Shown here one piece after another: positions 32,068-54,361 of a stretch of 64,000 nucleotides of DNA (the stretch's first letter is position 1; every line of letters begins with the position of its first letter). Under the pieces are notes generated by a model. The model was not told the DNA's origin and did not search any database. It saw only the letters and a list, made by a program, of their open reading frames with translations. The position numbers and the translations under genes were made by a program. Origin of the DNA: Rhizophlyctis rosea (lineage: Eukaryota; Chytridiomycota; Chytridiomycetes; Rhizophlyctidales; Rhizophlyctidaceae). The DNA lies in the NCBI GenBank assembly GCA_027596075.1, contig JADGJC010000131.1, positions 42,338 to 106,337 on the forward strand, given 5' to 3'.

Positions 32068-32457
32068 TCATACGGTCATCAGATTGTAGATATGACAATA
32101 TAGACATAGATGTTTTCAAATGACTATCGTTATTTGCCCCAAGGTCCTTGACCGAGCTTTGAAAACGTGAAACTTTGGTTATCGTCATGGGGACTGGCTG
32201 ACAGATGCACCACGTTTCAATGCAAGTAGTGTGTGAGCCGCCTCAGCCACAGTTGTGTGGTTTGTTCCACACTACGAACGGCCAAGCATTTTGCATTTCC
32301 ACTCATATGAACGTTTTCACACTTGACCATCTCCTCGAACTTGGTTGCTTTTGACCATTACTCTGGCTTCTGTCCCCATTTCATGACTGGTTAGTGAGTC
32401 CGATAATATCACATCTACTCGTACCTTCCTTTGGTGGAAGTTCCTGCGCTCGGCACC

Positions 32458-33514
32458 ATGTTTAAATCCACCCAGATGCACTGTAAGGTCCAGAGACTCC
32501 CATATGCGCGTCTCTGCACTTTCGTAGCTGACTTGTCACTCCACCCACACCCCACTCGACGCTTCAACGTCAACACTTCCTTTGTTCTCTCCCCGCGCAC
32601 GCGTTTGCACTCCGCCACAACACACTCGTTCAACAACGCTCTCAATGTACAAGCTTCTGAACCTGACGGCTTTGTTCCGTACGAGCTTACAATCCCTCTT
32701 TTGCGGAAAAAGAAGTTTCGACCAGAGGAGGATGAAATAATTCGAGCGGAGGTGACTGCAGCAAAGGTAGAGGGTAGAGTACCGAGATTTAGTTATGTAG
32801 CGGTCTACCTGAAGAGATCGCGCAGTTCTGTCCGGAAGCGGTGGCCATTGATCAATCCAGACCTTCGTCGAGGACGGTTTACACCAGATGAGAACCACAT
32901 CCTTGCATATAGTGTTCGCCGGCAAATGCAGGAAGGTGGCGGGCAGATCTTGTGGGCATTGATAGCTGGTGTTCTACAGCGTCCGGCCAGCCACGTGAAA
33001 GACCGTTGGGTCAACGTGCTCGATGATGGGCTCAAGGTTGGATTATGGACGCAGGAAGAGGATGCCGCCATCGAAGAAACTCAGCTTGAGTCTGGGAAGG
33101 GGTCCCAACAGGGTTTCGAAACGTTGGCATCATGTCGTGAATCCTACATTGAAACGACGGGGGTGGCAGTCGTTTGAGGATGATGTGATCAGGCAGGAGG
33201 TAGCAGAAGCTAGGACGAGTGGGCGCCGTGTAAACTGGAACGAAGTGGCATTTAGGCTTGGGCGGTCACAAAGTTTGGTTCATAACAGATGGTGCAATCA
33301 GCTTGACCCTACGTTGAAGAGGGGCCGATTCACACAAGGGGAGGATGTGGTGTTGAGGGCGTTGAGAAAAGATGGCGCAACTTGGGCCCACATCGGTCGA
33401 ATGATGTGCCGTCGACGGTGGAGTGTAGCCTGCCGATGGGCCGTACTGGAGAATAAGAATCAGGAGTTGCGTGGGGATGGAGGAGGGGGAGGAATGATGG
33501 CCGGATGTAGTTAG
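32458..33514 (+). pseudogene. Myb/SANT-repeat family copy A, internal deletion with frameshift
   Basis: From the ATG at 32458 the protein starts with an Arg-rich, nearly acid-free stretch resembling a mitochondrial presequence, then the family signature VPYELTIPLLRKKKFRPEED. Repeat 1 (KFRPEEDEIIRAEV to WPLINPDLRRG) and repeat 2 (RFTPDENHILAY to VKDRWVNVLDDGLKVG) are complete. Repeat 3 starts LWTQEEDAAIEE, but some 20 residues that paralogues have before LGR are missing, and the frame changes at about 33079-33095; LGRGPNRVSKRWHHVVNPTL then continues in another frame, followed by repeat 4 (GWQSFEDDVIRQEV to VHNRWCNQLDPTLKRG) and a fifth partial repeat to 33514. As read from the start, translation ends at 33177. 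No GT-AG pair explains the break. Confidence 0.8.
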
Positions 33515-34189
33515 CATACAAAGCTGGTAGCACACCCTTTATTCAGTTAGGTGAAACAGGAAGCAGGTGTCGTTAGTACGCATGGCGGGCAACGCAACGC
33601 AGAAATGTGTATAGCTGAAGGTTTTGTTAAGTCAATCGATCGTAAAATGTTATCGAATGTTTGGACCAGATATCGGCAGCAATCAATATCAGCTACATTA
33701 GGGAATGCATAACGGATGCCTGTAATGATGATGATGAATGGCAGCCTGTGCTCGGAGTCTGTACGCGTGTCGAAGCGTCTAGCCACACCAGTTCTGTTCC
33801 GTAGTACTGGTCGGGCGCGGTTAGTTGATGGCTTTGACAAAGGCAGAGAGGCAGTGTAGCAGGCCCACCGATCAGCCGATGTTATGATTCTTATCACCCG
33901 GGCGTTGCAGAAATGAGTGGCGGGGTACACCGTACCACGCGCTGAACCCACGCGCAGTCACCGTCTTACTGTAGCCTCGGATACCGGTAAATCAACGTGA
34001 AATCGATGGGGGTTGGTTGAGTGGGCTGGCAAAGGCACCGCGGCAGCATCGCATCTTGCCCTTTATCTTCTCCCTTGCCACCTCGAAAGTCTTCCACTCA
34101 AATTGCATTGTCAAGTCCTTTGACCCGTGAAATTGTGTACAACCCGCCTCTACATTACCCAAAATCTATATGGGGCTACCCGAAGCGAA

Positions 34190-34480
34190 GTCGACCTGAT
34201 TTGTCTCTGATCTATTCAGACACGCCACAACAAACTTCCACCTCGGCCTACGGCATTCTGCCCCTAGCTGCTCTGACTTCCTCCCCAATTCCCTCATCCT
34301 GCTCAGGCCAATACTTCTCCGTTTCTCGAGCAGAGGAACCGTAAGTTCGTACGGGACGTTTGTTGCTTGTTTGTTGATCACGGTACGATACGGGAAGGAT
34401 GCAGTGTGCAGACTGCTTGGTGGGGAGCAAGAAGTTTGGGGTCGTACGGGTACAAACAGGAAGGAGGCCATGAGTTTCAT
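34190..34480 (-). pseudogene. Myb/SANT-repeat family fragment B
   Basis: A remnant of the N-terminal end of the same family. In one frame it reads VPYELTVPLLEKRR, matching VPYELTIPLLRKKK of copy A. The next piece, KYWPEQDEGIGEEVRAARG, matches KFRPEEDEIIRAEVTAAKV but sits in another frame, and RPRWKFVVACLNRSE follows in the first frame again. So at least two frameshifts lie within 80 bases, and no second repeat follows. It is on the opposite strand to copy A, 0.7 kb away. Confidence 0.75.
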
Positions 34481-34829
34481 TGGGTGAAGCAGCTGTCAGG
34501 TTTGGGTGATATAGACGGCCGCCAACAACGTGGGCAAAAGGAAAGGGCTTCTGGTGATTTGGAAAGCTTTAAAGAAAGGATTGCGGGTGGGAAATGGCAT
34601 TGTGGATGGGGAAGTTGTGAGTGATGTGGGGACAGAGTTTTGAGACCTTCCGTTGATGTTGAGCAATGTAATGAAAAAGTTTTCAGTAAAACGTGTAAAA
34701 AGTGAAGGAAGGCTTCGAGTTGAAAGTGGCAGTGTGTGAAAAGCCTTTTGAATCCAATAATCATCCACTGCGTTCAATAATAGAGCACCCACAACCACCA
34801 CAACCACCACAACCACCCCTCACCAGCCA

Positions 34830-35948
34830 ATGTCTCAAACCTCTCTCCCCGGCGAACTCCTGGACACCATCCTGCTTCTCCTCGCCCCCATCCGATGTTT
34901 CCGCGCAGCCGTCCACCTTCGCCGCACATTTCCCCGCGACAAAGTCATCCCCCTCATCCCATCCGCAAGCATGAACGCCGCCTCCCAACGAGGTTTAGTA
35001 GACTTGCTGGACTGGTGGTACCGGAGTGGGCTAGACTTGACATGGACAGAAGCCGCCATGGACCAAGCTAGTTACCGTGGACATTTATCCGTGTTAGAGT
35101 GGTGGAAGGCGAGCAAACTGGATTTAGTATGGACTGACGCCGCCATGGACAAAGCTAGCTGGCAGGGACATGTATCTGTGTTGGAGTGGTGGAAAAATAG
35201 TGGGTTATGTGGGTTGCAGTGGTCTTCCCAAGCAATGGACTGGGCCAGCATGGACGGGTTTATCTCTGTTCTGGATTGGTGGAAGGGAAGCGGGTTACAA
35301 CTGTTGTGGTCCGAGGGTGCGATGGACCGCGCGTCCGAAAGGGGTCATACCTCTGTTCTGGATTGGTGGAAGGGAAGTGGGTTGGAATTGAAGTGGTCAT
35401 ACCGCGCAATGGACGATGCAAGCAGAAACGGCCATGTCTCGGTCCTGGAGTGGTGGAAGAGTAGTGGGTTAGAACTGAGGTGGGGGTCGCCAATGGAATC
35501 TGCAAGCAAGGGTGGCTGTGTCTCTGTTTTGGAATGGTGGAAGTTGAGCGGGCTGGAAGTGGAGTGGTCGGATGAGGCGATGGACAGTGCGGGAAGTACT
35601 GAGGTGCTGGACTGGTGGCAGGGAAGCGGGTTGGAACTGAAGTGGTCTGATGAGGGGATGTATATGGCGAGCGAGTACGGCTTGGTACATATTCTTGAAT
35701 GGTGGGAAAGGAGTGGGCTGGAGATGAAGTATACTGCCAAAGCATACGAGAGAGCCTGCCATTTGGGTCACTTTGAAGTTATGGACTGGTGGGAAAGTCG
35801 GTTGGAATTGGGGTCGGAATCGGAAGGTAGTGAGTCGGAATCGGAAGGTAGTGAGTCGGAATCGGAAGATAGTGAGTCAGGTTCCGAGGACGGTAGATCC
35901 GAAACAGAAGATAGTGAGTCAGATTTGAAGGATGGTATGTCGGAGTAA
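34830..35948 (+). CDS. Ankyrin-like repeat protein with Glu-Trp-Trp repeats and acidic tail
   Basis: A single exon of 372 residues. The N-terminus (LPGELLDTILLLLAPI) looks like a short F-box-like or cap helix. Ten or so degenerate repeats of 31-33 residues follow, of the pattern A-M-D-x-A-S-x-x-G-H-x-S-V-L-(E/D)-W-W-K-x-S-G-L-x-L-x-W-S. This is the divergent ankyrin-type repeat, with VLEWW replacing the usual helix, seen in large families of chytrids and in some giant viruses. One repeat is shortened (MDSAGSTEVLDWW), consistent with a deletion within the array. The last 50 residues are a Ser-Glu-rich tail encoded by a 21-base tandem repeat near 35815-35880. Likely a protein-interaction scaffold; partner unknown. 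Confidence 0.85.
   Translation: MSQTSLPGELLDTILLLLAPIRCFRAAVHLRRTFPRDKVIPLIPSASMNAASQRGLVDLLDWWYRSGLDLTWTEAAMDQASYRGHLSVLEWWKASKLDLVWTDAAMDKASWQGHVSVLEWWKNSGLCGLQWSSQAMDWASMDGFISVLDWWKGSGLQLLWSEGAMDRASERGHTSVLDWWKGSGLELKWSYRAMDDASRNGHVSVLEWWKSSGLELRWGSPMESASKGGCVSVLEWWKLSGLEVEWSDEAMDSAGSTEVLDWWQGSGLELKWSDEGMYMASEYGLVHILEWWERSGLEMKYTAKAYERACHLGHFEVMDWWESRLELGSESEGSESESEGSESESEDSESGSEDGRSETEDSESDLKDGMSE
35815..35885 (+). repeat. 21-base tandem repeat coding Ser-Glu tail
   Basis: The unit TCGGAATCGGAAGGTAGTGAG is repeated about three times in frame, giving S-E-S-E-G/D-S-E blocks at the end of the ankyrin-like protein. The copies are nearly perfect, so tail length is probably polymorphic. Confidence 0.8.
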
Positions 35949-36024
35949 TATGAACTGGTAATACATATGAAATGCTATTTTCATATTCATATTATGCAGC
36001 GGCCAGTTGGGAAGTGTTCGACAT

Positions 36025-36048
36025 NNNNNNNNNNCCCCCCCCCCCCCG
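36025..36048. other. Assembly gap (10 N) followed by a C-run
   Basis: Ten unknown bases (36025-36034) precede 13 C and a short GC-rich stretch. The true distance is unknown. The gap lies 80 bases after the ankyrin-like gene and 250 bases before a Myb/SANT remnant, so missing sequence could include part of either locus. Confidence 0.95.
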
Positions 36049-36280
36049 CCCGCGCCTTTCTGGCTCAACCCAGGCACAACGGGGTGCAATTGCAGGGTCG
36101 TTGGCGCAGCAAGGTAGTACTCAAAACCCGGCTTTGCAAAAAGGGATGTTTGGGAAAAAGCTTTTGAAAGATGGGTTTTCATCACGGGGAAGAGTGGGAA
36201 ATTGCTGAGTGGGGTGTGGGAGGGCGGGTTGGAACTGGAACGAAATAAGTTCTGAGGCTTCAACGATTGATCAGTCATCA

Positions 36281-36462
36281 TTTGGGCTAGATGGCGTGAT
36301 CAGCTTAATCCTACCTTGAAGAAAGGCCCGCTTTAGATCAGAAGAGGATGCACAATTGAAGGAGCTGTGCAGGAATGGCAAAGTGAGGACCTATATTGGT
36401 CGTATCATGAACCGTGGTCTTTGGACCATACGCCAAAGATGGGTTGCTGTGCAGCGGTAAAC
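36281..36462 (+). pseudogene. Myb/SANT-repeat family fragment C
   Basis: A C-terminal remnant of the same family. WARWRDQLNPTLKKGPL matches VHNRWCNQLDPTLKRGRF of copy A. After a frame break (a TAG in the first frame), RSEEDAQLKELCRNG, TYIGRIMNRGLWTIRQRWVA and a stop match copy A's last partial repeat (GEDVVLRALRKDG, AHIGRMMCRRRWSVACRWAV). The upstream portion is missing and the assembly gap lies 230 bases away. Confidence 0.75.
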
Positions 36463-37048
36463 AACAGAAGTCGTTGGGACAGGGATCAAAATAAGTCGCT
36501 AGCTCAGGAGAGCAAACGGGCAAAGTCAAAATCTTCCAGTTAGATTACATAGAATCAAAAAAAAAAAAAAAGAGCGGTAGCTTTCTTCACAGGCCAATAT
36601 TTCTAAAGTGATTAAGACCCTTCACACGAGCAGCAGCACAGGCTTTCGTTCAAATCTAATCACCTTCACACCCCATTGCAGACCGGATGGACGAAATCAA
36701 TCTCCCCAAGAGCAAAAACACAGACTGCAATAGCTTTTCACAACGATCAAAGCAAGGCAGAACATCCATTCCAAGGGACATGATCCAAACAGAAAGTCCA
36801 AATCATTTCCCTCCCAAGTCACTTTCCAATTCAAAATGATAAATCTCGCACCGGTTGTGAAAGACACCGTCATTGAGGGACGGATGCCTCTGTCTGAGGT
36901 GCTTAACAAGATGTACGCTTCTCATTCCAACAACAACCCCCCTACAGACGCCCCGAATCACATCAAAGCATAATCCGCATTCCCCAAAAACAACTGCCCA
37001 AGCACCAAAAACAAAAGCAAGAACGAAGCAAGAAAAGCACCTGGCATT
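36463..37048. other. Intergenic region before PAK1IP1/Mak11
   Basis: Contains an A-run (about 36558-36572) and a possible short + frame at 36837-36971 (MINLAPVVKDTVIEGRMPL) with no recognised similarity. It should contain the 3' UTR of the minus-strand WD-repeat gene. I see no supported gene. Confidence 0.4.
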
Positions 37049-38575
37049 TTATTTACGTTGCTTCTTCGCAGCCTTGACAGGCGTCGTCCCCGCCTTCTTC
37101 ACCGGCTTCTTTAAAATAGACTTCGGTTTCGATTTTGGTTGTGACGGTGACTTTACCGGCGTGGACTTCACCGGCTCGACGACCTCCTCCTTCTCCTCCT
37201 CCTCCCCAACATCCTCCCTTCCCTCCCCCTCCTCCTCCGCCTTCCTCTTCTGCCCAGCCTTCACATCCCCACCCGCCGCCTTCTCCCCCTTCTTTTTCTT
37301 CTTGATCTTCTTCTTCTTCCCCGCCGCCCCGCCACCGTTTGCACCTCCCTCAAAAGATACACTAACAACAGGCTTCTCCCTCTTCCCAACCCCATTCCGT
37401 CCCGCCCCCGCCGGCTCCTCATACTCGCTTTCCCAATCGCTTGCGCCTTCTAGTCCCTCCTTATCGTCATTCGCTGACGGCAATGGACGTCCCCCGCGTG
37501 TCGATTCGGGAGGCGCAATGGCGAGACATGTTAGACGGCACTTGGCGTCGTAGGTTGTTAGAGGTGTTGCTGCAGGTGGGGGGATAGGTTTCGGGAATTT
37601 GGTCGGTTGGGCGGGGACTGTGGGTGGAGGTGGAGGTGGGAGGGATGCGAGGTGGGTGTAGACAGAGGCGAGGTCCCAGACGTTTATTGAGCCGTCTGAT
37701 GCGCAGGTGACGAGGAAGGTTTGGGGTGATGGTGTTGTGGGAAGGGAGATTGCGTCAAGGTCTTTGATGCGATTTCCGTGGGGTGTCATGAAGCGCATGA
37801 TTTTTGTACCGTCGGTGTTCCAGACTCCTACTGAGCGGTCTTCATCGCCGGTGACGACGACTTCTTTTTCTGACGTGCCATCTTCGCTGGGTATTGTTAG
37901 GGAAGTAAAGGTAATGCAGTTCACTTTCCCTACACCCTCCACCTTCCCGACCACCTCCCCATCAGCCGTTGTATGGATTTGCACTGCGCCGCCATCAAGT
38001 AGAACCGCATGGAAGTTCCCTGACGGACTCCAACAGACCCTGTCTGCGATCTTCGGCAGTTTCATACTGTAAGCACACAACCCCTTCACCAAATCCCAAC
38101 ATTTGATCGTCCCATCCCGTCCAACACTCAGCATGACCTTCCCACTAGGATGCACATCCACCCAATTGACCGCCCGCTTATGTCCCGTCATAGTCTTAAG
38201 TACTTCCCAGTCGCGCGTTCTTACGATGGCGATGGTGCCGTCTTCGCTAGCGGTTACGAGGTGGGAGGTTTTGTAGAATTTTAGGCAGGTGACGGTGCCG
38301 TTGTGGTGCATTAGCGAACCAATTTCTTTTCGGAGGCGGAGGTCGTAGAGTTTTACGGTTTCATCAGTGGAGCCTGTGGCAAGGTAGCGTGGGGAAGTCG
38401 AGAGAGATTTGATGCAGGAGATGTGTGCGGGGTACATGAATGCGGGTGTTATTGTTGCTGGCGTCGGAGTGACGTCCAGACCGTACAAGATGCGTTCATA
38501 TGCACCAGCTACCACCCGGAAAGTGGGAGAAGGAGCCTGTTGGGCCTCCCCCGTTGTTGTGTCGGCCGTTGCCAT
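37049..38575 (-). CDS. MAK11: PAK1IP1/Mak11-type WD-repeat ribosome biogenesis protein
   Basis: A single exon of 508 residues. WD repeats run over about residues 40-300: ISCIKSLSTSPRYLATGSTD with ETVKLYDLR, TVTCLKFYKTSHLVTASEDG, GHKRAVNWVDVHPSGKVMLS with GRDGTIKCWDL, VTGDEDRSVGVWN and VTCASDGSINVWDLAS. The repeat order and the AGAYERILYGLDV start match PAK1IP1 (yeast Mak11), a nucleolar factor for 60S subunit maturation. The C-terminal 150 residues are a long Lys/Glu-rich, nucleolar-type tail with several KKK blocks, longer than in yeast. No introns, unlike most neighbours. It is head to head with Sas10 (237 bases between start codons), another ribosome assembly gene. Confidence 0.88.
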   Translation of the reverse strand: MATADTTTGEAQQAPSPTFRVVAGAYERILYGLDVTPTPATITPAFMYPAHISCIKSLSTSPRYLATGSTDETVKLYDLRLRKEIGSLMHHNGTVTCLKFYKTSHLVTASEDGTIAIVRTRDWEVLKTMTGHKRAVNWVDVHPSGKVMLSVGRDGTIKCWDLVKGLCAYSMKLPKIADRVCWSPSGNFHAVLLDGGAVQIHTTADGEVVGKVEGVGKVNCITFTSLTIPSEDGTSEKEVVVTGDEDRSVGVWNTDGTKIMRFMTPHGNRIKDLDAISLPTTPSPQTFLVTCASDGSINVWDLASVYTHLASLPPPPPPTVPAQPTKFPKPIPPPAATPLTTYDAKCRLTCLAIAPPESTRGGRPLPSANDDKEGLEGASDWESEYEEPAGAGRNGVGKREKPVVSVSFEGGANGGGAAGKKKKIKKKKKGEKAAGGDVKAGQKRKAEEEGEGREDVGEEEEKEEVVEPVKSTPVKSPSQPKSKPKSILKKPVKKAGTTPVKAAKKQRK

Positions 38576-38812
38576 CGTTGACTGTTATGCCTACCGATCT
38601 CTGAACTCGGCTGCGATGAAATGTGATGGAGTGAAAAAGGGGTGAAGTAGTACGGTGTCAAAAATAAATATGGAATGTGGCGTGTGGCACTGCAGTGGCT
38701 TTTGTGATGCGGCTTGTGCCATGTTTCTTTTTGGCCCAGACAGACACGCTGCTATTTTTGACTTGTTGGAATTTTTATCCCTTCCACACATCAAATTCAT
38801 TAACTTATAGCA
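38576..38812. promoter_or_regulatory. Bidirectional promoter of two ribosome-biogenesis genes
   Basis: A 237-base gap separates the start codons of MAK11 (-) and SAS10 (+). It contains gcgatgaaat at 38613-38622, close to the PAC element (GCGATGAGMT) of yeast ribosome-biogenesis promoters, and A/T-runs such as ggaattttta at 38768-38777 that loosely resemble the RRPE. These short matches could be chance; the shared pathway of the two genes is what gives them weight. Confidence 0.45.
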
Positions 38813-41493
38813 ATGGCACGGAAGAAGGGAAGGAGGACCTTGGAAAGGCCTACGGGGCCAGAGTATGGTGACGATAACTTTGACTATCGGAAGGGTGCTT
38901 CAATGAAGTACAACACCTATGAAGATATTGGGTTGGACGAAGAGGACGAGTGTGAGTAGAAAGTTGGGTCAGCTCTCGATATCAAGCTATGTTCCTCATT
39001 CAATTTGGCAATGCTAGTCCACGACCAACGCGAAGAAATCAGTTTGGATGAGTCGCTTCTTCGCAGACGGAAAGATGGTATGAGTCTCCGTATCATTATG
39101 GAGTCAGAACCACAGCCTTAACCCATGACTTCCAGACCACTCTGACTCCGAAGAAGAAGTTTACGGCTTGGACGTTGATGACTCTTTGGATGAAGATGAA
39201 GAGGAGGGCGATGATGAGCGGCTTCTGGAAAAGCTGACGCGGGATCAGAGAATGAAGACCAGTGATGATGAAGAGGAGGCGGAGGGAGAAGAGGGTGATT
39301 TGGATGATGATCGGGCATGGGGAAGACGGAGAGGGATGTTCTATAATGCCGATGAGGCCAGCGACGAAGAAGAAGGTGTGTAAGCTTGTCGTAAAGTTAG
39401 ACAATCGTTGGCTCTGTCTTATCATCATACTATGTAACAGCTCAAGAAGAAGAGAAAGAAGCTCTTCGCCTCCAACGCCTCCAAACCTCCAAAATGCGCG
39501 CAGAAGACTACATAGACGATTTCGCCGATTCTCTCGGTGCCCGCGCCGCAGCTGACGCCAAATCATCAACACTTGCAACATCCGACACATTAGATGACAT
39601 AGACCACCTTGCCATCTCCTCATCCCTTCCTCTCCATCTCCTCCCATCCGGAACAGCTGCAGAGCTAGAAGTTGTAGAGAAGGGCACGAGTGGGATGAGT
39701 GAAGAAGAGAGGATGCGGTTGGCGGAAAGTATGATTCCGGAAGTCGTGCAGTTGCTTGGAGAGTTTGAACGGCGGTGGGTGGAGTTGCAGACTAGGATTG
39801 GACCGGCGGTTCGGTGGAGTGTGCAGGAAGGAAAACGGAATGGGAAGGAGATTGGAGAGGCGGAGAAGTATTTGCAGTTGAAGTATCGTACGTATCATTT
39901 GTCACATCGCCTATCGTGACATTTCAGGAAACTCACACTTCTCCCGAATCTCAGGCCTCCTGATATCCTACCTAACAAACCTCTCCTTCTACCTCTCCCT
40001 CCGCGCCCACCCACCCCCATCAACCGACATCACCACCCACCCCGTCGTAGACACCCTCGTAACCCTACAAGAACTCCTAGACTCTATAGAAACGAAGATT
40101 GAAGGAAAGATTGCGCTTTCCGACGATGAGAGCGAAGAGGAGGACGGGGAGGAGGATACCGTAGAGCGAAGAAAGCGGCGGAAGAGGAAGAGGAAGGAGA
40201 GGAGGAGGTTGGAGAAGGAGGCGGAGGGGATGAGGGGGTTTATGGAGGAGGTTGAGGACATTGTTAGGAAGGGTGCGGAGGGTGGGGAGGAGGAAGGTGT
40301 GGAGGAGGAGGGTGATGCGGAGGGAATGGAAGTTGACGTTCTTCCTGTCGCTAACGGTGTCAAGAGAGACAAACCAAAACTGAAAAAACGGAAGAAGTTC
40401 GAAGCGGCGATGGCAAAGCTAGAACCATCTAAACCTGCCGTTAAGGTCCGCAAAGGTCTTGCTGAGGCGGATCTTGTTATTCCGGAAGTGGAGTATAAGC
40501 CGGACGCGAAGTTGAAGAAGAAGGGGGAGAAGGAGAAGAAGAAGAAGAAGAAGGATGCTGTGGTGGATGATTTTGGAGATGGGCTTGGATTGGAGGATGT
40601 TGATTATGAGGATAAGTTGGAGAGGAAGAGGGGGTTGCAGTTCCATGTTACTAGGGTTGATCAGGTATGGCGTGATTGGTTTATCCGTTTTCCCTTGGCT
40701 TTAGTATGATGCTTTGGTGACACCCATGTCCGTTTCAATCATTCCAGACTATCGCAGCCCGCCAACGCAAAACGGCCGGTCTAGGAGACGACGATATCCC
40801 CTACCGCGACCGATTCGGTAAAGTCCTCAAATCCACAACAGAAGAGAAACCCGCTCCGTCTGCTCCACTCGACGTCGGAGGCGACGATTCCGCATTAGAT
40901 TACGACGCCATTGCGGCGGCGTTGGCGGCTGAGGATGCTAAGTTGGGCAAGAGGAAGAGGGGTGGTGTGGAGGAGGAGGCGGGTGAGGATGACGTCGATG
41001 GGTGGGGTGGCAGTGATGGAGGGGAAGGTGAAGGTGGAGAAGAGGACGAGGACGATGCGTTGGCGTATTATGAGAGTATTAGTAATGGAAGAAAGGAGAA
41101 GAAAATGCAGAGAGAGAGGGAAGTCTTGGAAGCTAAGGCTGCCGCTGAAGAAAGGTAAACCAAGTTTTCATTTCACATCCGTCATTTTCCCCTCCACTCA
41201 ACTCGCGTTCTTCCTCCCCCAACAGCCTCTACGACGACAACGACTTCACCTCCCTCGCCGAAGGCGCCAAACGCGCAGCATCCTACCAAATCCTCGCAAA
41301 CAAAGGACTCACGCCTCGTCGAAACAAGTTACAACGAAACCCGCGGTTGAAGAAGCGGAGGAAGTTCGAGAAGGCGCAGAAGAGGTTGGGAAGTTACCGG
41401 GCTGTTGCGGTCGATAAGAGTAAGGTTGGGGCGTATGCTGGGGAGAGGAGTGGGATTAAGCGGGATTTGGCTAAGAGTGTTAGGATTAAGTAG
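38813..41493 (+). CDS. SAS10: Sas10/Utp3 family SSU processome protein
   Basis: Exons 38813-38951, 39018-39077, 39136-39375, 39441-39887, 39955-40664, 40748-41154 and 41226-41493; 756 residues. Sas10/Utp3 is a nucleolar component of the small-subunit processome, needed for 18S rRNA processing; the human relative is UTP3/CRLZ1. Seen: an acidic N-terminal third; a helical Sas10/Utp3 domain at about residues 215-330 with LAESMIPEVVQLLGEFERRW, YLQLKYRLLISYLTNLSFYL and LVTLQELLDSIETKIEGKI; a long K/E-rich low-complexity region; and the conserved C-terminal Sas10 domain, ending ILANKGLTPRRNKLQRNPRL, KKRRKFEKAQKRL, then GERSGIKRDLAKSVRIK. That C-terminal block is diagnostic. All seven exon joins keep frame and use standard sites. 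Confidence 0.94.
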
Positions 41494-42194: not shown

Positions 42195-42626
42195 CTATCT
42201 AAACCCCTCACCCTGACGGCGAGCTGCTTTGACCGTCTCAATCAACTTGGCCTCTTCCTCTGGAGTCCAAGGCTTCCCATCACCTTCCTTCACCATCCGG
42301 TTGAGTCGGTCCGGATTCGGCAGCCGATCTTTTCCCGCTGTTTCTGAGCCACGTGATACAGAGCTTTTCTTGAGTTTCTTGGCAAGCGCACTCCACTTTG
42401 GTGGCCGGCCTTCAGACATTGCCTTCCTTACTTCCTCTCGGATGATCGAGTCTTCATGTGGGAGGTATTTCTCTCTTTTGGGCAGAGGTTTGGTGGGTTT
42501 AGTGGTATGAGGGCGGGTGACCACGTGGGTGGGCGTGGGTGTATTGAGGAGGATGAGGGGTCGGAGTGGAAGAAGCGGGATGGCGGGGAGGGATGATGTT
42601 GAGGCTGGATACGGAAGGGGAGGCAT
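42195..42626 (-). pseudogene. Myb/SANT-repeat family copy D, truncated
   Basis: The minus-strand frame begins MPPLPYPASTSSLP and has an acid-free, Pro/Leu/Thr-rich start. Repeat 1 begins KREKYLPHEDSIIREEVRKA and reads PKWSALAKKLKKSS, where family members continue to a V-x-x-R-W segment; here it passes into KDRLPNPDRLNRMVKEG, an altered end. Repeat 2 begins KPWTPEEEAKLIETVKAARR and the frame stops at once. A weak SRWRIGSRP trace appears in another frame about 90 bases downstream (near 42115-42145), suggesting a once longer gene. It may still make a short protein of 143 residues. Confidence 0.6.
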
Positions 42627-43177
42627 GGCAACTTCTGAAGAAGTGTAGTGATTTGGGCGACAAAGGGGCTGAGCGGATGATGTGAGTCAAATTGGAAGGA
42701 GATCATGTTAGTTAGACAGTTGCGCCATGCGCCTCATGGAGAGGTTTGTAAGTCTTACCGGCACAGCACTGACGACGGATGTGGTGAACCGGAAAAACAC
42801 CAGTAAGGAGAAGATCTGATTATTGACTTGCTTGTGGAGAGTTTTGCGTGCAATAGAGTGAGTGAGAAATCTTGGAGGTCATACGCGCAGAAGTATCTCT
42901 GCTAGATAGGAGACTTACATTTCACTATCAACCTACTCACGCCAGAGGACTGGGCAATGCGGCACTATCAATTTCTAGTGCCTTCGGGCACGTGAAAGCG
43001 ATGACAGCAAAGACAATCCGCCCTTTATGGGAGAACGTCTTCGCAAGGTTGGAAAAACAGGTGGAAAGGCCAAGGAGTTTGGCAGGGAACGGTGTCGCTG
43101 CTCTTGACCCCGACAATTGATAGGTTTGACAGGTACATTACACATACAAATAATATCAATTCCGCACAGGAACCCGC

Positions 43178-44008
43178 CTACTTCCTCTTGATTGCCATCC
43201 ACCTCAACCAAACATCGTAGTGAGATCGACCCAGCCGAAACCCAACCTCATTGAAATTGACACGCCTCTTTTCCCTAATGGCTGAGTTGACCTCCGCCCT
43301 CAATATAACATCCTCATACCCGAGCCAGCTCGTTTTCTTCAAGGTAGGATTCAAGATGTGACGCCAGCGATAGCTCAACGTCTGAGGGTTCTTGCCAAAA
43401 TCCAGAGCAATACTGTTCCAAGCCGGTGTTCGCTTGTTCTTTGCCGCGTCTAAACCCTCTTCTATGATAATCCTATCTATTTCACCGCTCCAAGCATCAT
43501 TCGTGCCCCGTACCGTGAGTACATTCCGCCACCGTCCACGAACCGTCATACTTGGCCTTCGCAGATCAGACCCCATCTCCTTCCAAGAGACTTTTTGTCC
43601 ACGATCGTTGTAATGTCGCACTCTGCTGAGGATATATTCGTCTTCAAATGGAGCAAATGCGCCGCGGACAAGCGACGGGTCAAGATGCAGCCATCGACTC
43701 CTGACCGATACTTCCGGTCTCTGCAAGTGCTTGGCCATCTTTTCCCAGTGGGGTTTGCGATTCTCGTGCTTAGCTTCATGTACCTCGTCGCGTATGTAGT
43801 CATCTTCGACGGGTAGAAACTTACGCTTCTTTACCACGGGGATGGTGTCTTTATACGTCACATCGCTCTTGAATCTGAGAAGGATGGGAGTCCGGGTGGG
43901 AAAGGGTGGTTTGGGCAGGGTTTCAGGATAGGAAGGAGCAGGAAAGCGAGAACGACCGAACCGCGCAAGGATTGCACGTGTCCGAAAGAGGCGGAAAGCA
44001 TGGAACAT
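43178..44008 (-). CDS. Intact four-repeat Myb/SANT-like protein with presequence-like N-terminus (copy E)
   Basis: A single exon of 276 residues from the ATG at 44008 (in-frame codons continue upstream to 44104 but start with a TTG). Residues 1-28 contain seven Arg and no Asp or Glu, typical of a mitochondrial targeting peptide. Four repeats of about 54 residues follow: KFLPVEDDYIRDEVHEAK to SVRSRWLHLDPSLVRG, AFAPFEDEYILSRVRHY to TVRGRWRNVL, DAWSGEIDRIIIEEGL to LSYRWRHILNPTLKK, and TSWLGYEDVILRAEV to GFRLGRSHYDVWLRW. Each has the helix-turn-helix spacing of a Myb/SANT repeat, with E-D near the start, W in the middle and R-W near the end. DNA binding is expected from the fold; target and organelle location are inferences. 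It is the only copy here with no visible lesion. Confidence 0.8.
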   Translation of the reverse strand: MFHAFRLFRTRAILARFGRSRFPAPSYPETLPKPPFPTRTPILLRFKSDVTYKDTIPVVKKRKFLPVEDDYIRDEVHEAKHENRKPHWEKMAKHLQRPEVSVRSRWLHLDPSLVRGAFAPFEDEYILSRVRHYNDRGQKVSWKEMGSDLRRPSMTVRGRWRNVLTVRGTNDAWSGEIDRIIIEEGLDAAKNKRTPAWNSIALDFGKNPQTLSYRWRHILNPTLKKTSWLGYEDVILRAEVNSAIREKRRVNFNEVGFRLGRSHYDVWLRWMAIKRK

Positions 44009-46438: not shown

Positions 46439-47653
46439 TCACCATGCTCCTGGGGCCCACGCTTCCAAGCATCCCGCGAAACTGGGCATGTTTTTGGACA
46501 TACTACGGATCATTGATTTCCCATCTTCAAATCCCAGTCCAGAGGGTGCGTTTGCATCTTCGCGATTGTCTTTCTCTGCCATTGCATTCCCCTCACCAAG
46601 TCCATCACCCTTTATCTGAACCAAATTTCCAAAAGTTTCAGGATCCACCCCGATTCCCTTCATGTAGTCCCAAGCCTCCGCGTTCCGTTGGGGGCATTCC
46701 ACGGCGTTCCTTTCCAATTTGCTAGCCCAATCATGAGGAATGTTCCTTGCTACCCTCCGTTCCTTTTCCCCACTTTGAAAGAAGTACACTACGATGAGGT
46801 GATGATCAATTCGACCTGGATGCGGAATGGTGGTCAAGGAAGGGAACGCAGAGATATTGTTGGGATGGGGTACCAGCAAGTGAAAGCCTTGCCCCTCATG
46901 GCAAGGTTCGTAGGGTGGAAATGTGATGATGTTGTGACCATTGAGATTGTTGTAAGGGAAAGCGAGCGCTGTAAAGACCAAAGCTGGCGATTCGGGAGCG
47001 TGGGGGAGGTCGACGTATGTCCAATGGCTATTGTGGATGTGCACCGCGGTAACGTGAGGATAGTACCTCCTGAAGAATTTGATTGATTGGATGGAATTTG
47101 GGCGGGTTTTGAGGTCGTTCATGGTGGCGGCGTCCATGGTAGGAGAGAATATCATACCCTTAAATTGGCAGGACAGTCGCGCGCGGGTGTGGCCGAGAAT
47201 GCGGTTTCCCTCATGACGCACGCAAGGATTGCTTACTACCTGATTAAGGGCCGCGTCCCAAATCTTCCGATACCGCTCAAGGTCCGTTTCGTGCACAGAC
47301 AAAACAAACGCACGAGGATTAAAGATTGTTCTCTCCCATTCCAAGTCCCCTGCCAAAACTCGGACAATCATTTTGACCAGCAGATCGGCTTCCGGGTGCA
47401 TTCGTTCGTCTCTTGCATTCAACCGGCTGCGTATTATTCGAAGGGATTGAGGTTGTGTCAGGGGACTAGGGGGTTGATTGCGGGCATCAAATGCCACGGT
47501 GAAGGGGTGAATCGCGAGGAAGAATGGTAAGGAGTTTTGAAAATTGGAAATGTCGAAATCGGGCAAGGAACCCCCAACAAAATCGTCCCAGCTTTTGCCA
47601 TTCTTTAATGCGCACACCGACTGGAGCGCCTGATACCATGCGTCCCCCGTCAT
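46439..47653 (-). CDS. Uncharacterised 404-residue protein, single exon
   Basis: An uninterrupted frame from ATG to stop. The composition is protein-like: rich in aromatic and His residues, e.g. RRYYPHVTAVHIHNSHWTYV, NIITFPPYEPCHEGQGFHLL, IDHHLIVVYFF. The final 60 residues are charged and less ordered (MAEKDNREDANAPSG). No signal peptide or membrane segment; no domain that I recognise. The frame length, absence of introns and lack of known relatives suggest a lineage-specific gene within the Myb/SANT-rich block. Confidence 0.65.
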   Translation of the reverse strand: MTGDAWYQALQSVCALKNGKSWDDFVGGSLPDFDISNFQNSLPFFLAIHPFTVAFDARNQPPSPLTQPQSLRIIRSRLNARDERMHPEADLLVKMIVRVLAGDLEWERTIFNPRAFVLSVHETDLERYRKIWDAALNQVVSNPCVRHEGNRILGHTRARLSCQFKGMIFSPTMDAATMNDLKTRPNSIQSIKFFRRYYPHVTAVHIHNSHWTYVDLPHAPESPALVFTALAFPYNNLNGHNIITFPPYEPCHEGQGFHLLVPHPNNISAFPSLTTIPHPGRIDHHLIVVYFFQSGEKERRVARNIPHDWASKLERNAVECPQRNAEAWDYMKGIGVDPETFGNLVQIKGDGLGEGNAMAEKDNREDANAPSGLGFEDGKSMIRSMSKNMPSFAGCLEAWAPGAW

Positions 47654-48087
47654 CGTCCATACATCAGCTAGGAAGGGTGTTGCATGCGAGGCTTAATGTA
47701 TGAGCATGCCGTTCCTGAAATATGAAATGCGAAGTGGGTGTTCTCTGTCTCCCGCAAACAGAGCTGTGGTATCCTTCTCACTCAGCCGCCGATACCGTCC
47801 TCCTACCGCCGAATCCATCATATACATATGTTAAATAATCTCCGCTGGCATGACCGTTGATAAAGAAGAGAAATTTGCCGCCCTTCTCGCCGTTGCTCAC
47901 TGAGTGGGTACCCGAACCGATCGCACCTGTTTTAGCTAAACATATGGCAAGACCAGAGTTCATATCCTCTGCTTTCATTCTCGTGAAACCCGTCGCCGCC
48001 CGCGCAACAACGCGGAAGATAGCATATGCATTCACGTGATACAAGTGATGGATCATAATCTCACAAAACAACCAATCTCTGTCACTT

Positions 48088-49147
48088 TTATCGCGTTCCC
48101 TTTTCAACGCTTATTTGTTTTTCTAGATAACAAGCTCTCTCCCGCACCGCAAGAGTGGACCGACCTAATCTATGCGCAACGTCGTTGAAATTCAGACGCC
48201 TGCCCGCCTCCCGCGCATTCCTAAGCTCTTCCATGACGACCTTATCTTCATGCCGGTGCCAAAATCCCCTCTCCAAAGTAGGATTCAGCACATTCCGCCA
48301 ACGTTTGCCGACCACACCGCGATGTCTGTATATCTCCTCACCGACACGGAGCCAATTGGGGAGCCTTGGATCCCTCGCTGCCTCCAAGCCCTCTCTTATG
48401 ATTATCATATCTTCTTGAGCCGTCCATGGGCCTTTACGGCCCAAGCTATTAAGGTCGTCGTGCCAGCGGTTCTTGACAAGCACTTGTGGTCTGCCAAGAT
48501 GATTCGCTATTGGAACCCATGTGATTCTCCTGCCACCTAACTCCATCTGCTGTTGAACTGCCTCAATAATGTACTCTGGTGAAGGAGCCCTTGACCATTT
48601 CTGGGTTGAGCAGAGTCCACCTGCTATATACATTGCACGCACGCCGATTCAACAGTCCCGCCAACCAAGCCCAACGCGGCTTTCTGTCCTCCGCTTTTGC
48701 CAATTCCACTTCCTTCATGATTGCCGTATCTTCCTCCGGGCGGAATTTCCGTGGTTTCTTTATTGGAACGGTTAGCTCGAAACGGACGTCGCTTGTTGGA
48801 AGAAGGCTCGGGGACGTGATGGGCGGAGGGTGGTCGGATTGTGCGGGATGGTGGATGCGCATCGTCACATCATCAAGCTCGCTGCCCAAAACTTCTTCTA
48901 TCCAAGACCACACCGGCATCTGCTCCTGCGGTATGCCCTTGCCCTCTTCACTTTTGAGATCCTCTCCTAACATTTTCTGCAGAAGTGCGGTGAACTCTCC
49001 AGAGGGAAAATTGCGTTCTTTGAGGATTTTCGTGGTTGACAGGTAGCGGGGACAGTGAGGCGGGGTTACCCAGGTTGCGCAACTGGTCAGGGAAGCTGGC
49101 CTCCATCCGCGGCGGAGTATCGGGACCAAGTTTGCATTGAGGTACAT
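48088..49147 (-). pseudogene. Myb/SANT-repeat family copy F, frameshifted
   Basis: The frame from the ATG at 49147 has a presequence-like start (LVPILRRGWRP) with the motif PRYLSTTKIL, a conserved MPVWSWIEEV segment, then the family signature VRFELTVPIKKPRKFRPEED. Repeat 1 is complete (to VYSRWTLLNPEMVKG). Repeat 2 starts SFT and breaks at about 48575-48580, where the frame runs into a stop after RVHY; paralogues have K-E-E-D here, so a few bases have been lost. The second frame resumes EYIIEAVQQQMELGGRR and covers the rest of repeat 2, repeat 3 (GPWTAQEDMIIIREGLEAAR to VGKRWRNVLNPTLERG) and repeat 4 (FWHRHEDKVVMEELRNAR to HRLGRSTLAVRERA). Upstream, at about 49428, sequence alignable with copy H's start has GTG where H has ATG. 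Confidence 0.8.
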
Positions 49148-49977
49148 GGTAAAATTTCCTTGGTCATGAAGATAATGATTAGTACTCTGCCCGCTCATTG
49201 TGGTTGACTTTCGGGAGCAACTTACTGTGTGGAAGTTCAGCAAGTGGAGATATTCCGCGTAAACAAATGGCAGTCGCGTTGTTCCCTAATAGAAAGTTCA
49301 AGGTTGAACGTCGAGTTGCTGGAAATGATGAAAGCCGAAGCAACCATCCGGGCAACCTTGTGGTGGGCTTTGATATTTTGATAGCGCCAACTGCGCCACA
49401 ATGTGGGGCACAGATGTTTACCACCGCCACCACGAAAGTTGAAGATGTACATGGGAAAGCCGAAAGCCGAAGATCGCTTTGAATCAACGTTTGCCCCAAG
49501 AAGCACTCAGAAAGCCGGTGACGTAGGCCTGAAACATGAACAAAAAATCACTAATATCTACTAGCCTCTGCCGTTAATTGAATGCCTGAAACCACCAAGA
49601 CGCGACACTCTGTGGTGGCACAGCTGACGGTAAACAAACACTCCCCTTCAATGGTCTTGAGAGATGGGGCATATGTTCACGCAATTATAACAAAACGGCT
49701 TACATTGCATGCACCAAGCAGCTGTTGTTTTCAGCACTGCTGTACCACAACGATGCGATCCCGCTGGCGTCTCCGTAATGGGGCTTTGGAAAAGGCTGGT
49801 AAATCTTTCGTTTGTGGCATGGAAGCCGTGCGGGAGGATATGATGCCAAGCACTCCCATCGCCTTGCTAGTACATACAACAGCTCAAAGTCACAGGGCGC
49901 AAAATCTGCGGCCTTAGTATTCAGTATAGACACGGAATGGAAGGGTTCAACCTCGATCGCAAAAAAACTTCCAATGA

Positions 49978-50394
49978 TCAGATAATGTATGATTCTTCGG
50001 CGCTGTTGGCCACTATCAAAACTGGTCACTTCATCTCGCTTGTAGCGATTCCACATCGCAAAGACTTACCGCTTATCTCATCCCATGCGCTTAGAATCTC
50101 TTCATCGAGCAAGATCAGTAGGGTAGCAAATAGCAAATAAGCACTGCCACTCTCACCACTTTGTGTAAACAGAGTCCAAAGCAACCAATCACGCACATCT
50201 TTCCAACCTAATGCCCACAGTTTCCACACCCTCCGAATGACATCTTCCGTTCTTCGACAAAGTGAACCAAATTGGAAATCACGGGAAGCAGTCTGCAATG
50301 CACCTTCAAAAGCGTACTCAACCCATATTCTCTCCGTGAACCATCTGCTTACTTCCTGCTCCTTCCTAAAATACCTACCTTTCCCATCCACAAC
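49978..50394 (-). CDS. Possible partial gene of unknown function
   Basis: Two joined exons are plausible: 50070-50394 and 49978-50021, with donor GTAAGT and acceptor GACCAG. The translated part has a hydrophobic, Trp-rich helical stretch (VIRRVWKLWALGWKDVRDWL, then LLFATLLILLDEE) and would end SVLIVANSAEESYII. The 5' end is open: an acceptor (GATGTAG) precedes 50394 but I could not place the first exon. No domain recognised. It lies between two damaged Myb/SANT copies, so it may itself be a fragment. Confidence 0.3.
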
Positions 50395-50454
50395 CTACAT
50401 CAGGTGAAAATGAGGGAAAATCTCCAAAACGTCAGGGCTGCGCCATAGCACAAT

Positions 50455-50472
50455 TCTTGTTTACAAACAATA
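50455..50472. repeat. TTGTTTACAAACAAT element, copy 1
   Basis: An imperfect inverted repeat (TTGTTT-AC-AAACAA) at about 50458-50472, downstream of copy G. The same 15 bases recur at about 52908. It resembles a forkhead-type site (TGTTTAC). Confidence 0.5.
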
Positions 50473-50838
50473 CGATCATGTTGAAACTCACACTCTGCTT
50501 CTAAAGGTGAGAGTTTGTTAAACCTATCGTAATTTCGAGGCCCCACAAAATGGAAACAAATGGTATGTCTTTTGCCGGCGCATCTGCGTTGTGTTGACGA
50601 TGGCGGACGTCTCCTTATCAAACGGCAAAAGAAGGGTCATCGCTACATCGGTGCATGCTTTCTGTCAGGTATTTATGGCAGTTGCGAGCTAGCAGGGCGA
50701 AAACTTCTTTATGCCGATGTGAAAATGCAATTCCTCTATGGTCGGAATTGGCCTGTGGTCCGGATTGATGTGATTGAAGTATATTATTTGCAGTACAAAG
50801 TAAATGCCAAGTCCTATTTCCCACTCGGGCCCTCACTC

Positions 50839-51956
50839 TCAACCGCTGGAGTCTTCAGCACCATTTGCTCCCTTCGTCAAGGAGGCAGCCCTCATCCATA
50901 TATCTACAGTGGACCGACCTAATCTATGAGCAACCTCGTCAAAGTTCGCACGCCTGCCCGTTCGTTTCGCAGCTGCGATTTCGTCCAGGATCGACGTATC
51001 CTCATGTGCAAACCAATCACCCTTTTGTAGAGTAGGATTCAAACGGGACCGCCAACGACCACCGACCATAATTGCGCTCCTTCCTATCTGCTTCCCTACA
51101 CTCTTCCACTTTGGTGGTCTTGATCTCTAGCAGCCTCGAGTCCCTCCTTCACTATGACAGCATCTTCCTCCGCCGTCCAAGGCCCCTTCCGCCGGATAAT
51201 TCCCAAGTGATTGTTCCAATGGTTTGCGACCGCGTTCGCCGATCTCCGGAGATGGTTTGCTATCGGGATCCAGTTAGGCCTTCCAGGCTTCAAATGTTTC
51301 TGCTTTTCTACAGCCTGACGGATATAGTCATCCTCCTCTTTTGTGAATGGCCCTCTAACCAATTTCGGATTGATCAAACTCCATCGAATGCGCACAGAAC
51401 TTGGATGCCTGTCAAAAAGGCGGCCTAACCATTTCCAACGCGGCTCTCTACCCTGATCCTTTGCTAAATTTACTTCATTTAAAATTGCTGCGTCTTCTTC
51501 CGGGCGAAACTTACGACGTTTTTGGACGGGAACGGTGAGCTCGAAACGGACTTTGTCTGTCAAAAGGACTTTGTTGGACGGGGTGCGGGAAGGGCGTTCA
51601 GGTAGTTTGATGGGAGAGGTGAGTTCCGTGGCGTTCCAACGGGAGCTCACAATAGAATGTGATCTACCAAGTAGACTTGCCACCGAGGTCCACTGCCGGC
51701 CCACCGTCTTGGCTTCCTTAACGGCTTCTAGCATCGCCTCTTCTTCGTCAGAGAGATACTTTGGAGGCTTGGAAACAGAACCGGCGGGCTCCGAAGGTTT
51801 GTCGCTGATTGGGATGACGAGTGAGGACGCGGGGCGGTAAGCGATGCTCGACGCTTTGACGAGATTGTAGCGGGAGCTAAGGATGATCGGGCGAAACGAG
51901 GCGATGCGCGGCAACCCGCGGACGGTCGCTCGCAGAAAGCTTTGATAGGCGACCAT
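50839..51956 (-). pseudogene. Myb/SANT-repeat family copy G, one-base frameshift
   Basis: From the ATG at 51956 the N-terminus is long, Arg/Ser-rich and acid-free for about 45 residues. It then has a repeat unique to this copy (KYLSDEEEAMLEAVKEAK to SIVSSRWNAT), the family signature VRFELTVPVQKRRKFRPEED, repeat 2 (to SVRIRWSLINPKLVRG), repeat 3 (PFTKEEDDYIRQAVEKQK to AVANHWNNHLG) and the start of repeat 4 (GPWTAEEDAVIVKEGLEAAR). At about 51113-51120 the frame shifts by one base and a stop follows 7 codons later. In the next frame PKWKSVGKQIGRSAIMVGGR, WRSRLNPTLQKG and the last repeat (DWFAHEDTSILDEI to HRLGRSTVDIWMRA) run to a stop at 50839. With one base changed it would be the longest copy; no restored product is asserted. 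Confidence 0.82.
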
Positions 51957-52894
51957 GATAGACGCTGGTTGACAGAGTAGACTGCCTTGTGAGCGCACAC
52001 ACCAAATAGCACGCGTATGAACAACGAACTCACCAGGATCAGGATTACTGGCGTCGAACACTTAAGTGATTACGTCCCACAACTTTGGTGGATAAAGGTT
52101 GCGTCCAGCGGCAAAGCAATGGAACACAAACCTGTTTTTACGGAATCTGTAGTAAATACTGGAATGTGAGCGTTTCATTGGTTGGATATACTCCGACGTC
52201 ACTTACCAGCACCTGCTCTGAAACGCAATCGAGTCAAACTCAAGGATTTCATCCTCGCCTAAACAGATATATAGGATACTTAGTAGAATAGACTGATGGT
52301 CCTCATCAAGGGGTTGGATTGGAAGAACAAACTGACGCCGCTCTTTTTTGGATTTTTTGTGGAGACAAAGGGGAATGCGGCAGGCTGGTGCCTTCCCAAG
52401 TTTCTTCGGTTTGCAGGAGGCGAAGGGAAGTTTGACGGGTTGGGAACACAAGGCGAAAGCTGCGCCATGTTGTGCGGCACAGTCTGGACTCTGCACCCCA
52501 CCAACACCACCACGAGACCCAAAGGAGGAGAGGGACCGCCCCGACATACGGGCAATATTTGCTACAGTAAGAAGTGATCTCCATTACAGAGCTGCAATGA
52601 ATAGCACTACCTCAGCGCGCCGAGTCAAGACACGTCGTTTCCTAGCGGGCCAGACGGTGCAACAAACGGCTCAGCAGCTTTCTGAGTCGGTCTGGCCGCA
52701 AACCCGGCTGAATGTCCAGTCAGTTACTCTCATCAACCTTTTACCGGCCTCAATGATATCGAACGACAATGGTTTGATCTGGCTGGCCTTTACAATGTTG
52801 CCAACTCCCACGTATAAAAAATGAAAAGAGCGGATGAATGCTACATCGCCATTTGAATATGCTTCCAGGACGGGACGAATCATGTAAACATACC

Positions 52895-52910
52895 TTTGTT
52901 TACAAACAAT
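52895..52910. repeat. TTGTTTACAAACAAT element, copy 2
   Basis: Identical 15-base core to the element near 50458, here about 480 bases beyond the 3' end of copy H. The flanking sequences do not match, so it is either a conserved small element or coincidence of an AT-rich inverted repeat. Confidence 0.45.
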
Positions 52911-53377
52911 CCCCTTCTGCCAGCTCGGTTTCCAGGATTCGGATTCTATGCATTTGTTCCCATGAAGCAGCTGTGATGGAGAAATTATATTGAGACGCTG
53001 CATAGTTGCTCGGACTCCAGGTTGTGAGCTCAATGAATCGTTCAGTGATGCAGGAGGTAACAGGAAGAAGCTGGCATCATAAAAGATACCGGTAGTTCAA
53101 GGATTGATATGCTGGAAAGTCATGCGGCGCCAGTTGGGAGTGAATCAAATGTACGCTTCATGTGGAAACTTTCCTTTCAATGAAGGGAAAGAGGTGATAT
53201 CATTATATCCAGGAAATGCCTTGCACCCATGTATCAGGGTGCTGTCCGGACTCAAGTGTAAAAAAGGCAACGAAGTTGCAGGGTTTTTGCACAAGAAGAT
53301 CATTGGACGCCACGGATCAAAGCGGTCTTCTGACACAGATGCAATTGACTAAGCTACTTTATTAAATTACAACGACT

Positions 53378-54361
53378 TTATACATATAACCGTCTCCAAC
53401 TGCTACCCCAGCACACGTATCGACGTTTCCGTTTCACCATACGCATCGCCCTTCCCCAAACTTGATCGATGGACCGACCCAACCTCAATGCAATGTTTTG
53501 CATTTCTACACGTTTTCCGGTCTTCCGCGCACCCTTCAGTTCTTTGAGAAGTACCTTCGTTTCCTCAGGAGTCCAAGGCGTTTGGAAGCGTAACAACCTA
53601 CGTCAGCGGATCACTACATGTGTTGTCGGCCTCCGTAGGTGCTCCGCTATCGGATGCCAATCCACCCTTTCAACCCCTGACTGCTTCTGTTTTTGGACGG
53701 CTTAAATGATGTAGTCGTCCTCCACTTGTGTGAAAGGACCCTGGACCAGCCCACGGTCTAACATACTAATCCACCTCATACGCGTAGTGCCCGCAGTTTT
53801 GCCAAGCTGGCCCGCCAACGAAAACCACCGTGGCACTTGATTCACCTTTTGAGACAGCTTCACTTTCCGCATGATTGCGGCATCCTCCTCGCGGGTCCAT
53901 TTTCGGCGGAGAATGGGAATGGAAAATGGGCCGCGACTGAGGACGGGAAGTGAGAGTCTGACGCGAGCGTCGCAAACTGGAAGGATTTCGGAGTATCGGC
54001 GGCGGGAAAGAGGATGGAAGGGAGCGGGGGGACGGACGCGCATTGTGACAGCAACCACTTTCCTGCCCGACACTCGTTCCAACCAAGACCACACTGGCAT
54101 TCGTTTGCCGAGTATCATTGCTATCTCCGGCCGAATTGGCGCATCTTTTTCCAACATTTGTTGCAGGACTTTTTTTAACCTAAGGGCGGGAGAACTGCGT
54201 TTCTGCAGGATTGCGGTGGTTGAGAAGTAGCGAGGAGGGTGGAAGTGGTTCAGGAGAGCCGCGCGAAGGGGTACGAGAGACGGCCTCCATCCGAGGCGGA
54301 TGGTTTGGACGAAATTTTGATTGAAGTGCGGCACAGATTGTTTTCTCACCACCGCCACCAT
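53378..54361 (-). pseudogene. Myb/SANT-repeat family copy H, two in-frame stops and a lost repeat
   Basis: From the ATG at 54361 the presequence-like N-terminus has HPPRYFSTTAIL, the R-x-F-S type of cleavage motif, and later MPVWSWLERV, both shared with copy F. Repeat 1 (KWTREEDAAIMRKVKLSQ to TRMRWISML) is complete. Repeat 2 begins PFTQVEDDYII and meets TAA at 53702-53704, where copy G has Gln (CAA). The frame then continues with AVQKQKQSG and WHPIAEHLRRPTTHVVIR to a TGA at 53603-53605, where paralogues have Trp. What follows (PWTPEETKVLLKELKGAR to LRLGRSIDQVWGRA) looks like the last repeat, so one repeat between is missing. The two stops are CAA to TAA and TGG to TGA, both single transitions. 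Confidence 0.82.

Follow-up and report, generated by a model that had tools for sequence, protein, structure and literature searches.

The 64,000-nucleotide stretch of Rhizophlyctis rosea DNA analysed here (the window), the end of contig C37 in an assembly of 44.1 Mb and 634 contigs, carries loci of a family of multi-repeat Myb proteins with presequence-like N-termini. From the sequences we infer, as the probable reading, that these proteins are imported into mitochondria, bind duplex DNA there and recognize differing targets, so that they would be mitochondria-targeted Myb readers of duplex DNA with diversified specificity. The window is mainly a graveyard of Myb copies (A to H, listed below), and the family itself is real. 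A preliminary description of this DNA had reported a family clustered in 22 kb; it is instead genome-wide, with 329 repeats scored across the stretches fetched from the assembly and grouped into 64 loci.

The family is Myb by structure and sequence, as first described, and both the Pfam Myb matches and the fold comparison bear this out. Nine of ten submitted proteins matched PF13921 (Myb_DNA-bind_6) above the curated cut-off, with copy E, the first parts of copies A and G and the second part of copy F all passing it; the Pfam scan of the first part of F gave no match. The same ten-protein scan returned Myb and other helix-turn-helix models, with DUF families and Rap1_C below cut-off, and among its hits at E ≤0.01 there was no PPR or mTERF model. 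The repeat length of about 54 residues given previously agrees with the spacing in the whole data set, where 102 of the 239 pairs of successive repeats lie 54 or 55 residues apart. The structure of copy E was predicted from an alignment, as prediction from the single sequence reached a mean predicted local distance difference test score (pLDDT) of only 34.4; the model has pLDDT <50 at residues 1-11, 18-20 and 140-170. It consists of three-helix repeats resembling solved Myb structures, which confirms the helix-turn-helix fold, and its best folds are c-Myb and SNAPC4, with a top VIA-align Z of 11.7 against SNAPC4 (7xur_A).

Compared to c-Myb R1R2R3 and the plant R2R3-MYB proteins, the family shares the repeat length, the Trp core, the helix-turn-helix fold and the basic recognition helix, but differs in having four to ten repeats, a presequence-like N-terminus and variable base-reading residues, which are near-invariant in those proteins. 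SNAPC4, the multi-Myb subunit of SNAPc, likewise has tandem Myb repeats on promoter DNA, but it is a nuclear, conserved protein, whereas the present family is multigene, fast-evolving and presequence-bearing. The replication-terminator protein Reb1, which is nuclear, is a weaker match.

The residues expected to read DNA are on average among the most variable parts of the repeat. In the alignment of the repeat hidden Markov model (HMM) with c-Myb, columns 39, 42, 43 and 46 correspond to K128, K182, N183 and N186, which we take to be the residue numbers of the contacts; N186 in particular is presumed to be one. K128, K182 and N183 of c-Myb are key recognition residues according to the part of the source drawn on here (PMC3240579). 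Of the 47 columns (246 full repeats of the 329), 39 and 43 show the highest entropy and hold many residue types with none dominant, so that the canonical Lys (R2) and Lys-Asn (R3) of c-Myb and R2R3 proteins are not kept. On a tree of 26 five-repeat open reading frames (ORFs), columns 39, 43 and 46 have the three highest mean site rates (2.07, 2.14 and 2.02, respectively), with rates of at least 1.9 in all five repeats for columns 39 and 43 and in four of five for column 46; the mean for column 42 is 1.30. With 12 core columns excluded, the mean rate is 1.88 over the four contact columns (20 sites), compared to 1.07 at the other non-core columns (130 sites). The order is reversed in 25 plant R2R3 proteins, a set returned by searches and not a random sample, where contact sites average 0.28 (8 sites) and the others 1.13 (48 sites); the exception among the eight contact sites is column 46 of the first repeat, at 1.13.

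Within the six-member FH clade described below, 289 of the 450 first and second codon positions at contacts differ, as do 523 of 911 fourfold sites and 1313 of 4020 other non-core positions, giving corrected ratios of 1.34 (0.94-1.94) for contact codons and 0.39 (0.30-0.53) for the other non-core ones. Acidic residues are rare at columns 39, 43 and 46 (45/684, compared to 639/3003 at 13 other exposed columns), where Asn, Gln, His, Ser and Thr are favoured. The long repeats on contigs C624, C46, C305 and C101 avoid acids in the same way (14/236 vs 260/1041). Acidic residues are thus kept low, unlike in loss of function, and the residues vary, unlike in readers of a single shared target, which together suggest diversified DNA specificity.

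The Arg-rich, acid-poor N-termini noted earlier were seen again in the window copies, and their presequence-like character was compared in the 41 members whose repeat 1 is preceded by 35 residues or more, the first Met being assumed as start; the set takes in window pieces whatever their repeat number or later breaks. The median acid-free run is 44 residues, compared to 8 in 55 long control ORFs and 11 in 760 short ORFs, and the median net charge of the first 60 residues is +6, compared to +1 in the long controls. The best basic amphipathic segment scores 0.47, whereas the controls reach 0.35 (756 short ORFs) and 0.21 (53 long ORFs); the family's own N-termini, when shuffled, attained 0.47 in 5 of 200 trials. 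Among four cleavage-like motifs, the strongest occurs in 12 of 41 members (3.9 when shuffled, 0/1000; 5/55 control ORFs), and another does better than the remaining two (13/41; 5.9 shuffled, 3/1000; 3/55). In a clade of six copies on six contigs, the FH clade, Phe-His directly before repeat 1 is invariant in an otherwise variable N-terminus, and none of the six has a run of Lys and Arg resembling a nuclear localization signal (NLS).

GrpE, a mitochondrial protein in fungi, provided a single positive control from the same genome. Its probable N-terminus, an open frame that overlaps the 5' side of the GrpE exon and is taken as the first exon, begins with 49 acid-free residues, of which the first 48 include seven Arg but not a single Lys, and ends in RRLYST, resembling RYFSTT of copy H and RYLSTT of copy F. 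The presequence-like N-termini stand out from control ORFs and from their own shuffles, and the Arg-rich, acid-free, amphipathic character and the cleavage-like site belong to the group and not to every member. Two other intended controls yielded nothing usable: the piece fetched for Cpn60 is a CCT-type subunit by sequence, and no first exon of citrate synthase was seen in the 401 bases fetched. Neither COX1 nor Sod_Fe_C had a match in the assembly, although introns could hide one for the latter, which suggests an assembly without mitochondrial DNA (mtDNA).

Pfam Myb searches of the assembly gave at least 132 and at least 88 matches. The 64 loci comprise 30 open copies (one open frame, at least four repeats, more than 35 residues ahead of the repeats), 28 broken or partial ones and six with a single repeat, the last two classes including some loci resembling ordinary Mybs (on C1, C65, C148, C389 and C603). 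These copy counts are lower bounds, since further loci exist beyond those fetched (for example on C17, C94, C304 and C319) and neighbouring genes were merged in places during grouping, above all on C624. Five repeats are found in 24 of the 30 open copies and four, seven or nine in the remainder; a single frame of ten repeats sits in a merged C624 group. In that region (C624:69001-109000; L023, L024, L025 and L026), broken copies are interspersed with a cluster of giant Myb proteins whose single frames hold as many as ten repeats. The repeat part is unsplit, whereas other genes of the same genome match in several pieces. The copies are old, as best local protein identities between them are only 28.7-59.0%.

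The many loci and many broken copies uphold the birth-and-death expansion proposed at the outset. In-frame stops interrupt five loci besides copy H (TAG, TAA, TGA, TAA and TAA), and since stops of all three kinds occur, ordinary pseudogene formation looks likely. Programmed frameshifting or stop read-through was ruled out by these stops, together with the TAA of H, and by frame changes at differing places. In the same assembly, the flagellar IFT57 has 5 matches over cut-off and chitin synthase 44, which fits a flagellated fungus.

The loci in the window were located by six-frame translation and an iteratively built repeat HMM, and are as follows.

Copy A, 32407-33511, + strand: presequence-like N-terminus (Met 32458), ELT linker and about five repeats, with a frame change near 33070-33110.
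Copy B, 34169-34495, - strand: relic, with the linker VPYELTVP and a partial single repeat.
Copy C, 36320-36457, + strand: relic, a single last-type repeat.
Copy D, 42198-42686, - strand: N-terminus and about 1.5 repeats; stop-bearing similarity continues downstream.
Copy E, 43181-44008, - strand: the sole open copy; Arg-rich N-terminus, linker and four Myb repeats, no fifth in frame.
Copy F, whole, 48091-49285, - strand: two parts with a frame change between them.
Copy F part 1, 48566-49285, - strand: N-terminus with RYLSTT, ELT linker and repeat 1, with an extra degenerate repeat seen by eye ahead of the linker.
Copy F part 2, 48091-48648, - strand: three repeats in a different frame.
Copy G, whole, 50842-52061, - strand: two parts with a frame change between them.
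Copy G part 1, 51099-52061, - strand: N-terminus, extra repeat, ELT linker and repeats.
Copy G part 2, 50842-51126, - strand: two repeat pieces in a different frame.
Copy H, whole, 53381-54373, - strand: in-frame TAA at 53702-53704.
Copy H part 1, 53705-54373, - strand: N-terminus with RYFSTT, an extra degenerate repeat (by eye) and repeat 1.
Copy H remnant past the stop, 53381-53602, - strand: one repeat.

The preliminary description had listed at least eight loci of one architecture. Myb repeats do lie at or near all eight coordinates, but the loci are not eight equivalent genes, as only E has an unbroken frame, and even E, with four repeats, falls one short of the five in its nearest relatives. 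The linker (V/R)-F/Y-E-L-T-V/I-P...K-F-x-P-x-E-D, described as shared, is present, but among the N-termini read it marks a single subfamily, that of the window, C31 and, with a variant, C617; elsewhere the linkers are VPP-rich or very short. The extra repeat between presequence and linker was scored in G (36 bits); in F and H it was recognised by eye only, without a score. Overall, the earlier observation is partly confirmed, and its interpretation as a DNA-binding family aimed at mtDNA or selfish mitochondrial elements is partly supported.

Several other features lie near these copies. A weak Myb-like fragment adjoining copy H (54719-55301, 16 bits), in which ORF 54813-55301 has no Pfam match, is possibly a ninth relic. 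Between copies B and C, a 372-residue ORF (34830-35948) encodes Trp-rich ankyrin-like repeats (Ank_4) whose DNA units are 67-71% alike, and an assembly gap of ten N (36025-36034) followed by a C homopolymer adjoins relic C. Elsewhere, 24927-25183 and 27710-27963 are 66% alike over 260 columns in inverted orientation. The window closes at the contig end. No telomere array was seen there: of four telomere-like strings tried, three do not occur anywhere in the window, and a 10-mer is present once, at ~63627.

Protein searches found no presequence-bearing relative, with 6 of 33 matches inspected by eye. The matches were three weak ones (two plant, one Trametes), 29 Mybs or metagenome proteins and one planctomycete protein; the 29 are ordinary Mybs by name or domains, many of them from plants, together with some unnamed metagenome proteins, and as the searches behind these 29 and the planctomycete match gave scores only to candidates with the most words in common, distant fungal relatives may be missed. 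The literature titles and abstracts searched contained no account of a Myb family of mitochondria.

A number of observations weigh against mitochondrial readers of diversified specificity. On the DNA-reading side, the rate test is not independent, because the contact columns were picked after the entropy table, and the core and exposed column sets are our own choice. Column 46 falls to 1.61 in the remaining one of its five repeats, column 38, which is not counted as a contact, is also fast (1.78), and in the C624, C46, C305 and C101 repeats the contact columns are variable yet not the most variable. The lower bound of the contact ratio, 0.94, makes neutrality formally possible. Nor is every repeat a clean Myb, as some of those in an FH-clade member on C24 (L017:2434-3369) also match the bacterial-type models GcrA, HTH_38, HTH_23 and Sigma70_r4_2 above cut-off. 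On the targeting side, the four cleavage-like motifs were written after the N-termini had been read, and two of them show a modest excess (21/41, with 14.3 shuffled, 26/1000, and 15/55 control ORFs; 14/41, with 8.2 shuffled, 22/1000, and 6/55). The acid-free run is shorter than 20 residues in eight of 41 members, and NLS-like runs occur in the N-terminus and linker of nine of 41, including copy E (KKRK), which would fit a nuclear or dual location.

These last runs, and the typically nuclear location of characterised Mybs, favour an alternative in which nuclear Myb transcription factors underwent lineage-specific expansion; the Arg/Ser/Pro-rich N-termini would then be disordered tails, and the diversified recognition helices would serve nuclear promoters or repeats. 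We consider this unlikely, as the N-termini are acid-free, Lys-poor, Arg-rich and amphipathic, with cleavage-like sites, akin to the probable GrpE, and the FH clade keeps its FH site without any NLS-like run. High basicity and the possible neutrality of contact codons would also suit mitochondrial nucleoid coat proteins without sequence preference, in the style of the HMG proteins Abf2 and TFAM, whose contacts could vary because specificity is unneeded. Coating, however, would presumably not need dozens of strongly diverged copies; moreover, the contact columns evolve faster than other exposed columns, though relaxation could contribute, and they favour polar over acidic residues, though acid avoidance alone fits nonspecific binding too. 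This alternative is therefore improbable. A slightly smaller chance still is given to mitochondrial RNA-binding Myb repeats, functionally like PPR or OPR proteins: CDC5/Cef1-type spliceosomal Myb repeats also score well in the fold comparison, but the residues that have diversified correspond to the DNA-reading ones of c-Myb, and in sequence and fold the family is closest to DNA-bound c-Myb and SNAPC4.

Finally, dispersed single-frame copies, many of them broken, in an intron-bearing genome could be genes borne by mobile or viral elements and not a host family. Two stretches of ~400 bases on C624 (79154-79545, L024:154-545, and 90830-91215, L025:1830-2215) are 84% alike, mostly outside the Myb frames, and represent a recent duplication or an element. 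In blastn comparison of 53 fetched loci (39 matches of at least 80 bases), however, those between contigs were below 80% identity and, judged by coordinates, within the Myb frames, many loci having little flank; the low protein identities between copies and the lack of any FH-clade relative found in viral contigs also speak against such elements, making them the least probable source, with very little chance.

For the mitochondrial readers of duplex DNA that we favour, nuclear genes would encode small basic proteins with a cleavable mitochondrial presequence and four to ten tandem Myb repeats. After import, the repeats would lie along the major groove of mtDNA, and each recognition helix would read a few base pairs, such that one protein recognizes one composite site. 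Duplication would give new copies, whose base-reading residues change while the fold is kept, and many would end as pseudogenes. The likely effect would be site-specific control of mtDNA, at the level of transcription, of termination or replication block, or of the silencing of certain regions.

In the way they may work, these proteins recall the restorer-of-fertility-like (RFL) PPR proteins of plants, in which, according to the parts of the sources drawn on here, RNA-contact residues are under diversifying selection and fragments are strewn through the clusters (PMC7380019, PMC5075784). Both would combine organelle-addressed tandem repeats, clusters with broken copies and a concentration of diversifying change at nucleic-acid-contact positions; the folds, however, are unrelated, and PPRs bind RNA whereas Myb repeats typically bind duplex DNA. 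By this analogy it is conceivable, if doubtful, that the family is an arms-race repertoire of mtDNA readers against selfish or rearranging mtDNA, a duplex counterpart of Rf-PPR proteins whose contact residues form a readable code. If true, a fungal lineage would have built organelle-addressed, diversified nucleic-acid readers from Myb, following the logic of PPR restorers but acting on DNA. The family would then offer a natural collection of modular proteins that bind mtDNA, conflict between nucleus and mitochondrion would become testable in flagellated fungi, and a recognition code for addressing mitochondrial DNA might follow.

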